Shown here piece by piece: positions 15,666-38,657 of a stretch of 64,000 bases of DNA (position 1 is the stretch's first letter; each line of letters begins with the position of its first letter). Location: positions 248,001 to 312,000 of the forward strand of contig NZ_JAMXST010000001.1 of assembly GCF_024124905.1 (NCBI RefSeq). Direction: 5' to 3'. A model generated the notes under the pieces. That model ran no database searches and had not been told where the DNA came from. It was given only the letters and a program-made list of their open reading frames with translations. A program made the translations under genes and the position numbers. The DNA comes from Cellulosimicrobium cellulans (GTDB taxonomy: Bacteria > Actinomycetota > Actinomycetes > Actinomycetales > Cellulomonadaceae).

Positions 15666-16730
15666 TCAGGTCTCGGCGGGCTCGAGCGCGGCCGAGAGGG
15701 GGTGGGCACGGATCGCCGCGGCGAGCTCGCCCTCGATCCGGTCGAGGTACACGCCGGTGGTCGCGATGGACGCGTGCCCGAGGAGCTCGGCGACGACCTT
15801 GACGTCCCACCCCTCGGCGGCGAGGAGGGTCGCGGTCGTGTGGCGCAGGGCGTGCGGCGTCGCCTCGCGCCGGTACTGCGCGGGCATGCGCGCGACGCAG
15901 CGTCGCAGGAGGCCGCGGACGGCCTGCGCGTCGATGCGGCGGCCCCGCCAGGACAGCAGGAGCGCGCGCCGCGCGTCCGGGTCGTCCGGGCGGCGGGCGA
16001 GCAGTGCGGGGCGCAGGCGCTCCAGGTACTCCTCGAGCGCCGCGGCGAGCGGGGGAGAGAGCGTCACGGTGCGGACGTGCCCGCCCTTGCCCTGGATGCG
16101 CCAGCGCGTCTGGTCGGGCTCGCGGGAGAAGTCGTCGAGGTTCGCGCGCTCGAGCTCGGAGACGCGGGGGCCGAGGACGAGCAGGAGTGCGACGACGAGT
16201 CGGTCGCGCAGCTGGAGGTCCTGGTCGCGGCGCGCCGCCGCGGCCGGGTCTCCTGGGGCCCGGGCGGCGGAGACCTCGAGCAGCGACGCCGCCGACCCCG
16301 CGGACAACGCGGTGCGCGCGACGCGCAGGCCGTCGCGCACGCGGGCCGGGGGAGAGGCCCACTGCATCGGGTCGGCCTGGACCCACCCCTCGCGCGCCGC
16401 GTGGGAGAAGAAGCGGGTGACGGACTGGCGGAACCGGTTGACCGTCGCGGCGGAGCGGCCCGAGCTCCCCGGCTTGCGCGACGCGTCCGCGTACCGGCCG
16501 TCGGGCGTCGTCTGGTAACGCAGGAGGACGTCGTCGACGTCCTCGCCGGCGACGTCGTCCAGCACCCGGGTCGGGCCGGCGAGCCGCGCGAACTCGGCCA
16601 CGTCCCGCTCGTAGCTGCGGCGCGTCGTCGGCGACAGGACGCCCCGGAGGGTCTGCGCGGCCACGGACGCGAGGTAGCGGTCGGCCGCCTCGGCGACGGT
16701 GATCCGCTCGAGGCGGGGCGGGGCGACCAT
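15666..16730 (-). CDS. Tyrosine recombinase, XerC/XerD-like
   Basis: Site-specific DNA recombinase of 354 residues. It has an N-terminal core-binding domain and a complete catalytic set: R189 (GPRVSEL), K215 (GKGGHVR), H293 and R296 (TPHALRHTTA), H319 (LLGHAS) and nucleophile Y328 (TTGVYLDR). The ATG follows AAGGAGG at ideal spacing. No phage, transposon or obvious att site surrounds it, so it is more likely a resident recombinase than a prophage integrase. Its upstream region carries a near-consensus PafBC/RecA-NDp promoter (16763-16785), so expression after DNA damage is expected. Whether it serves dimer resolution or another site is unknown. Confidence 0.9.
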   Translation of the reverse strand: MVAPPRLERITVAEAADRYLASVAAQTLRGVLSPTTRRSYERDVAEFARLAGPTRVLDDVAGEDVDDVLLRYQTTPDGRYADASRKPGSSGRSAATVNRFRQSVTRFFSHAAREGWVQADPMQWASPPARVRDGLRVARTALSAGSAASLLEVSAARAPGDPAAAARRDQDLQLRDRLVVALLLVLGPRVSELERANLDDFSREPDQTRWRIQGKGGHVRTVTLSPPLAAALEEYLERLRPALLARRPDDPDARRALLLSWRGRRIDAQAVRGLLRRCVARMPAQYRREATPHALRHTTATLLAAEGWDVKVVAELLGHASIATTGVYLDRIEGELAAAIRAHPLSAALEPAET

Positions 16731-16762
16731 GAGCGAGCCTCCTTCGGGGTGCGGTCGCGGCC

Positions 16763-16785
16763 AGCCTAGGTTGTGCCACCGACAA
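16763..16785 (-). promoter_or_regulatory. PafBC-dependent (RecA-NDp) promoter
   Basis: On the minus strand the bases read TTGTCGGTG, eight bases, then TAGGCT. This is an exact fit to the mycobacterial RecA-NDp pattern TTGTCRGTG-N8-TAnnnT, which is bound by PafBC in the LexA-independent DNA-damage response. The predicted start lies about 25 bases ahead of the recombinase ATG. pafB and pafC lie in this window at 36515-38621. Confidence 0.8.
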
Positions 16786-16843
16786 CGACGCGGCCGGGCG
16801 GCGCCCTGACCTGCACCGACGCCGGAACCGCGGGGTCGACGGC

Positions 16844-17548: not shown

Positions 17549-17777
17549 GTGCCCAGGCTGGCACACGCTCGGGCGTCGGGACGCCGGAGGCGGTGCGGTC
17601 GGCCAGAGGGCAGGGGACCGGGCGTGGGCGCGATCCCGGCGCGGGCTCGGTCGGACGCAGCGACGTGCCCGCCGCTGGCTACCGGACCGCGGAGGACTGG
17701 CGAGGCCCGCCGGGCCGGCGATGCCGCGTCACCATGCTGTTGACCTAAACACAATGGTTTGCGTCGTATGTCCGATT

Positions 17778-18242
17778 CTAGGCATCGTAGCCCAGCGTGC
17801 GGTCGCGCACCAGACGTCGTCGAGGCGCTCGGACGCCTGGCGCGATCGACGGCTCGAGCTCGTCCCGTGGCGCGTCGACGTCGTCGGGCCCGGACCGCGG
17901 CGCCCGCGCGGGGGACACCGAGCGCCAGACCCACACGGCGACGGTCGCCGCGCCGGCGGCGGCACCGACGAGCACGAACGCCACGAGAGTCAGGACGAGG
18001 GCCGGGACCCAGGCCAGCGTCACCAGCGTCGCCGTGACGAGGCGTCGCGGACGACGGCCGTCCGGTGCGAGCCCGGTGAACGGCGACGTCGCCGCGAACG
18101 TCCTGGAGGCGGTTCCTGACGACGCCCGGGACGGCGCGAGCGCCACCAGACCTGCGAGCGGCCGCCGGCCGGCGCGTCGGTCCGTGCTCGGTGCGCCCGG
18201 GCGGCGCATGCCGAGCCGGGGTGCGTACGTCGTCGTGCTCAT
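17778..18242 (-). CDS. Hypothetical single-cluster membrane protein
   Basis: 154 residues starting MSTTTYAPRLGM. The first 75 residues are basic and low in complexity; then come one long or two short membrane helices (ATLVTLAWVPALVLTLVAFV and GAAAGAATVAVWVWR) and a charged tail with the repeated RR and RD pairs. I recognise no domain. No Shine-Dalgarno precedes the ATG. The 14-bp palindrome at 18309-18322 lies 67 bases upstream and may control it. The surrounding DNA is poorer in GC than the window average. Confidence 0.55.
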   Translation of the reverse strand: MSTTTYAPRLGMRRPGAPSTDRRAGRRPLAGLVALAPSRASSGTASRTFAATSPFTGLAPDGRRPRRLVTATLVTLAWVPALVLTLVAFVLVGAAAGAATVAVWVWRSVSPARAPRSGPDDVDAPRDELEPSIAPGVRAPRRRLVRDRTLGYDA

Positions 18243-18308
18243 GACGAAGGGGAGTGTGCGCGGGCCCTCCGTGATGCGTCGGAGCGACTCGTCCGACCTC
18301 GCGATGAC

Positions 18309-18322
18309 ATAATGTACATTAT
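18309..18322. promoter_or_regulatory. Perfect AT-rich palindrome, probable operator
   Basis: ATAATGTACATTAT is a perfect 14-base palindrome in a GC-rich genome, placed between two divergent membrane-protein genes. It contains -10-like hexamers on both strands. Its ATGTACAT core recurs in the palindrome ahead of the LLM oxygenase (25384-25395). It is likely a repressor site; PadR-type regulators are one possible class. Confidence 0.6.
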
Positions 18323-18430
18323 CGGCGCCCTGTCGGTGCAGGTGTCCGTAGCTCACCAAGGCTTCGCGCTGACGGACGATTCTCGGGAGCCACCGTTCAG
18401 TGCAGTCATCGCACCCGGGATACTTCATCC

Positions 18431-18820
18431 GTGAGCTCGCAGGCAGGAATCCCACAGGCACCGCGGTCGGTCCCGTGGTGGCGTGCGCTGCTCGGCCTGT
18501 TCGTGGCCGTCCTCGGCACCGTCGCGCTGTTCGTCCCGGCCGCGCTCTCGTTCGGCGTCGCGAAGGACTTCCAGAACGGCACCTGTCGGGAGTCGGGGCC
18601 GATCCCTGACACGTGCGACCACACGGCAGCTCAGGGGTATGCAGAGTCGATCGTGATGCTGGTCGCGCCCACCGTCGTCGGGCTCCTCATCACACGCCCC
18701 AGGCACGTGGGCAAGGTCGTTACCGTCATCCTCGCCGTCGCCCTGGTCATCTACCTGCTGCTGACGTTCACCGGCGAGACCACCCCACCGCCACCGGTCG
18801 AGCCGACCTACGGCGCGTAG
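18431..18820 (+). CDS. Hypothetical membrane protein
   Basis: 129 residues with three hydrophobic helices: ALLGLFVAVLGTVALFVPAA, SIVMLVAPTVVGLLI and VVTVILAVALVIYLLLTF. Two cysteines in the first extracytoplasmic loop (NGTCRES, PDTCDHT) could pair. The tail ends in a proline-rich TPPPPVEP. It matches no family I know. The GTG start is the first in frame after the intergenic region. Its last codons overlap the antisense 55-residue frame at 18808-18975. Confidence 0.65.
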   Translation: MSSQAGIPQAPRSVPWWRALLGLFVAVLGTVALFVPAALSFGVAKDFQNGTCRESGPIPDTCDHTAAQGYAESIVMLVAPTVVGLLITRPRHVGKVVTVILAVALVIYLLLTFTGETTPPPPVEPTYGA

Positions 18821-21980: not shown

Positions 21981-22421
21981 ATGGATCGTGAGGCGTTCGT
22001 CGGCTATGTCCGTTCGCAGGGGTGGGGCGTCGTCGCGTCGTTGGGCGACGACGGCGGGCCCCAGGCCGCGTTCCTCGCGGTGGCCGCGACGGGCGCGGGC
22101 GAGCTGGTGTTCGACGCGCGCGCGACGTCGCGCAAGGTGGCGAACCTGGCCCGGGACGCGCGCGTCGCCGTGACGGTGGGCGGGACGGACGGGACGACGC
22201 TGCAGTGCGAGGGCCTGGCGGACGTCCCGGTCGGGGCGGACCGGGACCGGTGCGCGGCGGCGTACGCGGCGGCGTTCCCGCAGTTCGCCGCCTCGCTGAC
22301 CGACGAGGGCATCGTGCTGCTGCGCGTCGCGGTGACGTGGGCGCGGTACGGGGACTTCCGCGACGGCCGGTCCGTCATGACGGAGCTCGACGTGACCGGG
22401 TGGGGTCCGCTCTCGGGCTGA
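21981..22421 (+). CDS. Pyridoxamine 5'-phosphate oxidase-like protein
   Basis: 146 residues of the split-barrel flavin-binding fold: FVGYVRSQGWGVVASL, the strand ELVFDARATSRKVANLARDA and RVAVTVGG. This is typical of small PPOX or general-stress FMN/F420-binding proteins. True PNPOx residues are not apparent, so the substrate is open. TACGGT ends six bases before the ATG, so the message is probably leaderless. Confidence 0.75.
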   Translation: MDREAFVGYVRSQGWGVVASLGDDGGPQAAFLAVAATGAGELVFDARATSRKVANLARDARVAVTVGGTDGTTLQCEGLADVPVGADRDRCAAAYAAAFPQFAASLTDEGIVLLRVAVTWARYGDFRDGRSVMTELDVTGWGPLSG

Positions 22422-36514: not shown

Positions 36515-37528
36515 CTAGCCAGCAGCCGTGCCGCCGGACGCGACGCCACCCGACGCGCCGTCGGGCTCGCCCGGCAGGTGCGCGTACGCGGACAGGGCGG
36601 CGCTCGCGGCCTCGCGCACGTCGCGCGCGACCGAGGCCGGCTCGACGGCGAGCACGTGCCGCGCCCGCTCCGTGAGGAGCTGGCGCAGCCACACCGGGTT
36701 GGTGACGCGCAGGCGCACCTCGAACGCGCCGTCGGGCAGGTTGCGCACGGACTCGACGGGGACCTGCTCCGCGACGGCGCGCGCGGGGCTGGCGAACGTG
36801 ATCGTCGCGAGCGGCGCGTCGCCGGTGGGCGTGAAGTCGACGTCGGGGTCGACGTCGTGCCCCTCGACGGGCTGGTCGAGCTCGGTGGCGGCGAGGATCC
36901 GGTCGACGCGGAACGTGCGCCGGCCCTGCGCGCGGTGGCACCAGGCGAGCAGGTAGGCGTGCTCGTCCTGGGTGTGCAGGGACACGGGGTCGACCTCGCG
37001 CTCGGACTCCTCGTCCGCGGCCGTCACGTACCGGATGCGCAGCCGGTGTCCCGCGACGAGCGCGCTCGTGATCGCCGCGACCACGCGCGGGTCGCCCTCG
37101 GGCGCGAGCTGCACGTCGAGCGCCGCCGCGGCCTCGCCGGTCGCGTCGGTGAGCTTGCGCAGCACCGACTCCACGACGCCCGCGCGCTCGGGGTCGGCCT
37201 GCACCGCCGCCGTCTCCCGCATGGCGCGCAGCGCCGCGATGAGCGCCACCGCCTCGCGCGTGCCGAGCCGCAGGGGCCGGGTCATGCCGCGCGCCTCGGT
37301 GAGCCGCACGACGCCGCGCTCGATCGAGTCGGCGTCGAAGTCGATGAGGTCGTCCGGCCAGTACCCGGGCGTGCCGGACACCCACAGGGCGTCGACGTCG
37401 TCCAGGACCTGGCGCTCGCTCACGCCGAAGTGCCGGGCGAGCTCGCCCACCGGCACCGGCCCCGCCCCGTCCAGGTACGCGACGATGCCCAGCAGGCGCA
37501 CCAGCCGGTCGTCCGCACGCTCAGCCAT
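36515..37528 (-). CDS. pafC: WYL-domain DNA-damage regulator PafC
   Basis: Subunit of the PafBC transcription factor, which activates the LexA-independent DNA-damage genes in mycobacteria. The 337 residues carry an N-terminal winged helix (VPVGELARHFGVSERQVLDD), a WYL core (LRIRYVTAADEESEREVDPV, then YLLAWCHRAQGRRTFRVDRI) and the C-terminal WCX extension. Its start lies inside the end of pafB, overlapping by 8 bases, which supports coupled translation of the heterodimer. Confidence 0.9.
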   Translation of the reverse strand: MAERADDRLVRLLGIVAYLDGAGPVPVGELARHFGVSERQVLDDVDALWVSGTPGYWPDDLIDFDADSIERGVVRLTEARGMTRPLRLGTREAVALIAALRAMRETAAVQADPERAGVVESVLRKLTDATGEAAAALDVQLAPEGDPRVVAAITSALVAGHRLRIRYVTAADEESEREVDPVSLHTQDEHAYLLAWCHRAQGRRTFRVDRILAATELDQPVEGHDVDPDVDFTPTGDAPLATITFASPARAVAEQVPVESVRNLPDGAFEVRLRVTNPVWLRQLLTERARHVLAVEPASVARDVREAASAALSAYAHLPGEPDGASGGVASGGTAAG

Positions 37529-38621
37529 GCCCCGCCACCTCCGTCGACCCCTCGCCCTGCCCGGAACCCGGCACGGGTGCCGACGACGATCCCATCGCCG
37601 CCGCGTCCCGCAGCCGGCGCACGACCGCCGCGCGCAGGTCCGGCGGCCCGAGCACGAGCACCGCGTCCCCGTACCCCACGACCTCGTCCGCCAGCGCGTA
37701 CCGCACGTCGTACGCCACCTCCAGCACGTCGCGGCCCGCGCCGTCGCCCGCCCGCGCGTCCGGCACCGACCCCACGACCGTGCCGCGCGCCCGCAGCGCA
37801 CCCGCACGCTCCGGCACCACCGCCAGACGCGCCACCCCGCCCGCGTCGCGCGTGCCCAGCGCCGCGTCCACGTCCACCTCCGCCGGCACCTCGAACGCGT
37901 CGCGCGGACCCGTCGCCCGCACCCGGCCCTCGACCCGGCTCAGCCGGTACGACCGCGGCGCCCCCCGGTCCAGGTCGAACCCCACGAGGTACCAGCCCCC
38001 GCGCCGCGCCGCGATCCGCCACGGCTGCGCCCGCCGCGCCCGCACCTCGCCCGTGCTCGCCGCCCGGTACGTGAACGACACCGCGCGCCGCGCCGAGATC
38101 GCGTCCATCAGCGTCGCGTACGCGTCCCCCACCGGCCGCACCTGCGGCGCCAGACCCGCCACCACGTCCATCGCGGTCTCCCCCGCGCCCGCCGCCCGCA
38201 GCTTCGTCAGCGCCCGCGAGATGTCCGTCCGCAGCGTCTTGTCCTGCCAGAACTGCGCCGCCAGCGCCAGCACCCCCAGCTCCGCCGGCGTCAGGTCCAC
38301 CGCGGGCAGCGCGTACGCGTCCTGGTCGATCCGGTACCCCACCTCGTCCGCGTGCCCGCCCGCGTCCACCGTCACGATCGGGATCCCCAGGTCGCGCAAC
38401 GTGTCCTTGTCGCGCTCGAACATCCGTTCGAACGCGTCCGGGGACGGGGCGTCGCCGTACCCCGCCACGCTGACGCGGATCTGCTGCTTCGTCATCGACG
38501 CGTTCGTGTTCACCAGCGCGATCACCAGGTTCAGCAGACGCGCGGCCGGGTTCGTCGGCGACGACCCCGACGACGACGGCGCAGGGTCGGGCACGGACGA
38601 GGGGGGCGTGGGCTCGGACAT
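37521..38621 (-). CDS. pafB: WYL-domain DNA-damage regulator PafB
   Basis: Partner of PafC. The 366 residues start with a Pro/Ser-rich tail, then ARLLNLVIALVNTNASMTKQ and the DAFERMFERDKDTLRDLGIP helix-turn-helix region. The WYL block is AISARRAVSFTYRAASTGEV with WYLVGFDLDRGAPRSYRLSR, followed by the WCX domain. TAGCGT lies eight bases before the ATG. The pafA ligase gene, usually upstream, is not present in the window. A perfect SOS-box-like palindrome lies inside the reading frame at 38416-38431. Confidence 0.9.
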   Translation of the reverse strand: MSEPTPPSSVPDPAPSSSGSSPTNPAARLLNLVIALVNTNASMTKQQIRVSVAGYGDAPSPDAFERMFERDKDTLRDLGIPIVTVDAGGHADEVGYRIDQDAYALPAVDLTPAELGVLALAAQFWQDKTLRTDISRALTKLRAAGAGETAMDVVAGLAPQVRPVGDAYATLMDAISARRAVSFTYRAASTGEVRARRAQPWRIAARRGGWYLVGFDLDRGAPRSYRLSRVEGRVRATGPRDAFEVPAEVDVDAALGTRDAGGVARLAVVPERAGALRARGTVVGSVPDARAGDGAGRDVLEVAYDVRYALADEVVGYGDAVLVLGPPDLRAAVVRRLRDAAAMGSSSAPVPGSGQGEGSTEVAGHG

Positions 38622-38657
38622 CGGGCACCACGCTAGTCGGTCGATAGGGTGTGCCGC

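Follow-up and report, generated by a model that had tools for sequence, protein, structure and literature searches.

A candidate damage-inducible tyrosine recombinase paired with a second dif-like site beside XerCD dif in Cellulosimicrobium and related actinobacteria

Introduction

Xer/dif systems are usually described as one per chromosome, either XerCD or a single-recombinase substitute. The 64-kb stretch of Cellulosimicrobium cellulans DNA analysed here (the window) encodes a further Xer-type recombinase behind a promoter of the DNA-damage response type. A first-pass annotation had placed the gene under PafBC (RecA-NDp) control, regarded the recombinase as stand-alone and proposed that it resolves, for example, chromosome dimers or acts on an unknown element. 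This interpretation is partly supported. The second dif-like site and the canonical dif lay outside that annotation, and the term stand-alone proved wrong: at the replication terminus, next to the dif of XerCD, there is a dif-like site in single copy to which the recombinase gene is linked. As the gene has its own terminus-borne site, dimer resolution is therefore favoured over the unknown element.

Results

Recombinase gene and protein

The features of the locus are listed in Table 1. Coding sequence and promoter together span 15666..16785 from the stop codon to the promoter.

Table 1. Features of the recombinase locus and the PafBC genes in the window
Feature	Positions	Strand	Description
Tyrosine recombinase gene	15666..16730	-	ATG start, 354 aa; third of the genome's Xer-type recombinases
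Ribosome-binding site AAGGAGG	16738..16744	-	From sequence
PafBC-type (RecA-NDp) promoter TTGTCGGTG-N8-TAGGCT	16763..16785	-	Ahead of the recombinase
Conserved element GTCGGTGCAGGTCAGGG	16804..16820	-	Upstream of the promoter; from sequence conservation
Second dif-like site ACCATTGTGTT-TAGGTC-AACAGCATGGT	17731..17758	-	28 bp, 11-6-11 inverted repeat, single genomic copy
CGGACATA block	17767..17774	-	On the 5' side of the second site; six of eight bases kept in 72–88% of 60 loci, last two less
Canonical actinobacterial XerCD dif CGCCGATAATGTACATTATGTCATCG	18302..18327	-	Seed sequence from PMC3025954
PafC	within 36518..37807	-	HTH_PafC, WYL and WCX; true start inside the ORF
PafB-like protein	within 37524..38633	-	WYL and WCX; true start inside the stretch

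The protein carries a Phage_integrase domain (95.6 bits, Pfam). Its R-K-H-R-H-Y set had been annotated as complete, and all six residues (R189, K215, H293, R296, H319 and Y328) are indeed present and invariant in alignments of 11 and 29 sequences. The gene is under purifying selection (dN/dS 0.07–0.25 against five congeners) and its product is 98% identical to the homologue of Cellulosimicrobium funkei U11. On the curated models, the recombinase stayed below the cut-offs with 131.7 bits for XerC (cut-off 335.15), 124.5 bits for XerD (329.6), 62.6 bits for XerS (NF003462; 267) and 56.9 bits for the integron integrase (TIGR02249; 265), and it was below the XerA cut-off as well. The same genome encodes an XerD with 335.0 bits, above its cut-off of 329.6, and an XerC with 294.3 bits on its best model, XerC, yet under the cut-off of 335.15.

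A tree built from 35 selected rows set 27 of them apart from the eight XerC/XerD rows with a support of 100/99, and the recombinase branched outside both the XerC and the XerD clade; the branches are long, so the finer branching order is unsafe. Structure prediction gave a middling model (pLDDT 82, pTM 0.59). Its top fold match in the PDB was XerH with difH at a best TM-score of 0.42, followed by XerD and, close behind, lambda integrase and archaeal XerA; TM-scores were only about 0.4 throughout. A locus 95% identical to the Cellulosimicrobium one was encountered in a record titled Sphaerisporangium cinnabarinum ATCC 31213 (QAPD01000045.1, L055); it branches with the Cellulosimicrobium locus and the record is likely mislabelled.

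PafBC-type promoter and further motif sites

As annotated, the promoter lies on the minus strand just upstream of the recombinase. The strict pattern has a single match in the window (0 across 100 shuffles), which is also the only one in the whole genome of 4.67 Mb in ten contigs; the looser pattern TGTCRG-N10-TANNNT is found 22 times in the genome versus twice for the reversed pattern. Conservation ahead of orthologues, which had been named as a check, was borne out. Of the 62 family orthologues, 55 have an exact match to the looser pattern within 150 nt upstream and the remaining seven deviate from it at one position; among 4991 control windows, 7 had a match. These 62 loci (71 fetched loci minus one from Raineyella and eight from Kocuria) are related by descent and hence are not 62 independent cases. 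In a second family of the same class (f32), the motif is located 29–76 nt upstream in 18/18 recombinase homologues. It is also present ahead of distant homologues in two genomes (G218 and G222), but was absent ahead of the only homologue of family f48 (G389) and was not found ahead of the homologues in Kocuria (eight loci) and Raineyella (one).

The genes behind 18 of the 21 other motif sites, chosen by codon-position GC, were run against NCBIfam (L037, L040 and L052 were left out). Seven belong to DNA repair or topology, namely recA, radA, recQ, polA, nth, a DEDD exonuclease with a UvrC-like part and a type IIA topoisomerase A subunit. Further genes encode a succinic semialdehyde dehydrogenase (L041), ABC transporters (two genes) and an ECF-type sigma factor; NCBIfam gave no match for six genes and a weak one for another. 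The expectation that the motif marks repair genes across the genome held for recA, radA, recQ and others, but non-repair genes follow it too. Both PafC and the PafB-like protein are encoded in the window, as had been stated, with matches to HTH_PafC, WYL and WCX. For mycobacteria, passages of PMC6789036, PMC11804915 and PMC8223512 describe that PafBC acts at such promoters via sensing of single-stranded DNA and sigma adaptation. Judged by motif and conservation, the PafBC-type promoter ahead of the recombinase is real, and control of the gene by PafBC is well supported at the sequence level.

Near the promoter of many orthologues, the element GWCGNYGCAGGTCASNG was observed, in either orientation and both upstream and downstream of the promoter. 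In 25 family genomes, recombinase-free ones included, it gave 0–8 matches per genome versus 0–1 for the reversed control. The element GCAGGTCA was considered as a recombinase half-site and rejected: it is conserved near the promoter but not part of a two-arm site, none of the 21 other sites of the PafBC motif has it within 220 nt, and its longer form is found elsewhere too, including in genomes without the recombinase.

A second dif-like site linked to the recombinase

About 1.0 kb upstream of the recombinase start codon, the second site lies between a gene for a histidine phosphatase and an ORF with no assigned family. The consensus AAACCATTGTGTW-TRNNNC-AACACMRTGGT, in which a centre of 6 bp fits best, was derived from loci of the host family, and the site was found in 60 of the 62 family loci; presence counts in this family are partly built in by the origin of the consensus, unlike its absence elsewhere and its single copy. 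Of the two exceptions, L081 ends right at the second site, and its genome (G210, identified by matching coordinates) has the site 6.0 kb upstream, while L120 offers only 2.8 kb of upstream sequence.

With up to three mismatches, the site was detected in 75 of 221 family genomes at one place each (matches on the opposite strand are the same palindrome), and the control pattern in none. The recombinase profile (E≤1e-60) matched 80 of the 221 genomes. All 75 site-bearing genomes have the recombinase and 0/141 recombinase-free genomes have the site (Fisher p 1e-53, kinship ignored), counts that stem from related genomes and are not independent events. Five recombinase genomes were missed at this threshold; the site is present with five mismatches in G208 and with four in G226. 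G180, the genome of L104 by matching coordinates, has it with five mismatches, and G218 and G222 with their distant homologues contain another palindrome, ACTACGYTGTA-CGCTGC-AAGAACGTAGT, 191 nt upstream. On the basis of this co-occurrence, the pairing of gene and site is near certain, and the second site is probably the cognate site of the recombinase.

The CGGACATA block precedes the second site by 9–16 nt in most loci and, as seen by eye, often has a TANNNT hexamer just upstream; it is not found in the four rows inspected from Promicromonospora and Myceligenerans (two each). It raises the question of an accessory element or a promoter.

Carriage of site or gene by phages or plasmids was rejected, as searches of phage, plasmid and viral-contig sequences gave nothing convincing. 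The stretch from dif to the site had no match among 72,556 plasmid records (E≤1e-5), the protein had none among 50,697 phage records (E≤1e-20), and each of the 26 matches of the site core in viral contigs had at least three arm mismatches.

Position relative to dif and the replication terminus

Canonical dif, located with the actinobacterial seed sequence from PMC3025954, lies 543 bp beyond the second site in the window. With up to three mismatches in 26 bp, dif was detected in 95 of 221 family genomes, a pattern too strict for many of them, and linkage was judged by a looser scan of the loci. Here, dif was seen in 59 of 60 site-bearing loci and always in the same orientation relative to the site; the sole locus without it (L102) is truncated and starts 507 bp ahead of the gene. 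In three Myceligenerans loci, dif and second site are inverted as a pair relative to the gene. The DNA between dif and site measures 282–677 bp in 54 of the 59 loci (282–1867 across all) and has little similarity between genera. The distance from site to gene is much looser with 104–4398 bp within the loci and the 6.0 kb of G210. For the 38 genomes with both patterns at up to three mismatches, the offset between dif and site was 451–1232 with a median of 574.5. A conserved cargo between the two was rejected, since a good match between genera was limited to Isoptericola and one Xylanimonas row, besides a few single hits. In the window, an ORF at 17781–18461 runs through dif and has no Pfam match. 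A tRNA-Gly(tcc) of 95 nt, called by ARAGORN at 22035–22129 (+), overlaps long ORFs and is doubtful.

In 16 of 17 genomes, the second site and dnaA are separated by 0.46–0.50 of the chromosome, with several of the chromosome lengths taken to the nearest 0.1 Mb. G146 of the same species is the exception, with a separation of just 0.158. GC skew turns from positive to negative between 2.65 and 2.89 Mb in G009, where the site is at 2.77 Mb, and it turns near the site in G146 too, the signal being weak and noisy in both. As sole proof of the terminus, it was dropped for its noise in these two sampled genomes, and the distance to dnaA was used instead.

A blind search for palindromes near dif (9/11 arm matches, AT≥0.42) was positive in 34/59 family recombinase loci, 9/12 loci of other clades and 3/20 recombinase-free loci. 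The latter belong to 20 family genomes with dif and without the recombinase, and their three AT-rich 11-6-11 palindromes are all unrelated in sequence. Because the blind search recovers only these fractions, the consensus-based site counts are the stronger evidence.

Putative enzyme-site pairs in other clades

The f32 family, perhaps Streptosporangiaceae, was sampled with 18 genomes of 6–10.7 Mb. A recognisable dif (up to two mismatches; matches with three were set aside) was present in nine, and in eight of these the recombinase is encoded 1.6–22 kb from dif on the same contig; in G363, dif and recombinase are on different contigs. The palindrome ACCRGACAGAA-TYCACC-TTCTGTCCGGT is situated 0.4–0.8 kb from dif in 8/9 dif loci, and in the ninth only as a version with six mismatches. 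It sits on the other side of dif than the second site of the host family. Seven of the nine genomes without a dif match were fetched: three have the f32 palindrome, one of them 101 nt from the gene, and in the other four neither dif nor palindrome was found in the 19-kb stretch at the thresholds used. The genomes G582, G470 and G551 (loci L222, L315 and L318), which have no dif match, show an AT-rich palindrome, GGATAA-N6-TTATCC or GCATAA-N6-TTATGC, 0.7–1.2 kb from the second site, which is perhaps a diverged dif.

The homologue of Kocuria palustris, with 38% identity, has dif at -783 and the palindrome GTGTCGTAGTA-GATAAA-TAGAACGACAC at -263. For the Raineyella homologue, with 52% identity, dif is at -471, and G218 and G222 have a dif-like sequence with three mismatches 563 and 645 nt upstream of theirs. 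Kocuria dechangensis encodes at least five homologues (L114, L116, L117, L119 and L121) with no dif in the examined flank. All of them except L114 have GTGTCGTAGTA-N6-TANNACGACAC about 220 nt upstream; they are possibly mobile relatives.

Discussion

Recombinase and second site probably form a self-contained, damage-inducible single-recombinase Xer module that resolves chromosome dimers beside an intact XerCD/dif. The 354-aa enzyme would recognise the one 28-bp 11-6-11 repeat in the terminus, about 0.5 kb from dif. DNA damage would produce single-stranded DNA and thereby activate PafBC, which would allow the sigma-A RNA polymerase to use the recombinase promoter. The same damage would lead to more RecA-driven crossing over between sister chromosomes and thus to dimers, which the recombinase would resolve by recombining the site copies in the two termini. 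This would be an inducible second track beside XerCD/dif, and one might speculate that it is needed as XerCD requires FtsK at an active septum, which is delayed by damage. The dual-site layout and the damage-type promoter of the recombinase gene suggest an emergency system for the separation of joined chromosomes after DNA damage.

Dimer resolution is the preferred reading because a terminus palindrome tied to one recombinase matches single-recombinase systems described elsewhere; passages of PMC5357621 and PMC9765430 present this combination as known dimer resolution. From the sequences, which document the promoter motif and its conservation, the co-occurrence of gene and site, the single copy of the site, its terminus position and constant nearness to dif, the intact catalytic residues and the purifying selection, we infer that the recombinase acts on the second site, that PafBC induces it and that resolved dimers are the product of recombination. 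As in a module of this kind, one gene is linked to one inverted repeat, and the site is at the terminus in 16/17 genomes; it is, however, not the only Xer system of the chromosome, where XerC, XerD and dif coexist. With XerC and XerD present, the need for another resolution system is not obvious, which counts against such a module, as do the 141 of 221 family genomes that lack the recombinase, the dnaA position in G146, the f32 gene at up to 22 kb from dif or on another contig, the half of the 18 f32 genomes with no recognisable dif, the missing PafBC motif in Kocuria and Raineyella and the middling structure model.

Prophage genes are classically damage-induced. The palindrome could be an attachment site for an element that inserts beside dif and the recombinase a domesticated or resident mobile-element integrase, with damage triggering excision or integration of the element as in prophages. 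The Phage_integrase domain, lambda integrase among the best fold matches, the several Kocuria dechangensis homologues without nearby dif and the genes that may intervene between site and recombinase would all agree with this. It is nevertheless unlikely, given that 75/75 genomes have a single site (up to three mismatches) with no two-ended integrated element seen, that phage records, plasmid records and the mismatched viral-contig cores gave no convincing carrier, that the downstream neighbourhood is partly conserved across genera and that the recombinase is under purifying selection.

The spacing of about 0.5 kb to dif and the fixed relative orientation in 59 loci could also mean that the recombinase assists XerCD/dif and that its site serves as an accessory sequence for the topology or timing of recombination at dif, like the PepA/ArgR sites at plasmid cer. 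At cer, however, the accessory sequences directly adjoin the core, whereas the second site here is itself a full two-arm core, it is found on the opposite side of dif in f32, and the recombinase retains all six catalytic residues; a helper role is quite improbable. Autoregulation with the palindrome as operator and no recombination site is suggested by 10 of 11 Oerskovia, Paraoerskovia and Luteimicrobium loci, in which the palindrome is 114–132 nt upstream of the gene. In Promicromonospora, however, it is 2–6 kb away from the gene, and in f32 it stays near dif with the gene up to 22 kb off. The distance to dif is kept and that to the gene is not, and Xer sites have the same 11-6-11 layout, which makes an operator highly improbable.

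If dimer resolution is the correct reading, it would be regulated within the LexA-independent damage response, and transcription would tie recombinational repair directly to chromosome dimers, the chief topological consequence of such repair. This would also explain the purifying selection on a damage-inducible Xer-like gene. Both kinds of Xer system coexist here within about 0.5 kb and the second carries a promoter of the PafBC response. There is a fair likelihood that several actinobacterial lineages combine XerCD/dif with a damage-inducible single recombinase and its own dif about 0.5 kb away, with a site specificity that has diverged between clades and a place beside dif that has been kept. 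The spacing between dif and site is preserved despite the little-conserved DNA in between and raises the question of why the sites must adjoin. The four natural enzyme-site pairs, which apparently differ in specificity, might be of use as new recombinase tools. Among the titles and abstract openings listed for open-access papers (subscription papers and preprints apart), no report of such a dual Xer system was found, and of the whole words recombinase, integrase, xer and dif, PMC5656591 has matches that concern RecA only.

Among known systems, XerS/difSL of Streptococcus and Lactococcus and XerH/difH of Helicobacter and Campylobacter are similar in that a single recombinase of about 350 aa stands beside its own dif-like site; according to passages of PMC5357621, XerS has 356 aa and XerH 354–362 aa, each encoded next to its site. 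XerH/difH is also the best fold match. Unlike these systems, which replace XerCD, the present one is accompanied by XerC, XerD and canonical dif and has a PafBC-type damage promoter, and the recombinase is distinct from XerS by its score below that cut-off. For XerL/dif of Legionella, passages of PMC9765430 list a site of about 30 bp with low GC that is partly palindromic, near the terminus and non-coding with varying flanks, all of which fits the second site. The host lineage is different, however, and Legionella has a lone recombinase, whereas XerCD/dif is present here too. With XerC/XerD and dif, the pair shares the kind of fold, the catalytic set and a 28-bp two-arm terminus site with a 6-bp centre, but it differs by the tree split of 100/99, the scores below both curated cut-offs and unrelated arm sequences. 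Integron IntI/attI is likewise a tyrosine recombinase adjoining its own site under damage control, there through the SOS response (PMC3108266). It is regulated by LexA in contrast to the PafBC motif here, and the recombinase scored below the integron integrase cut-off. No cassette array was seen, and there is one site whose placement follows dif and not the gene.
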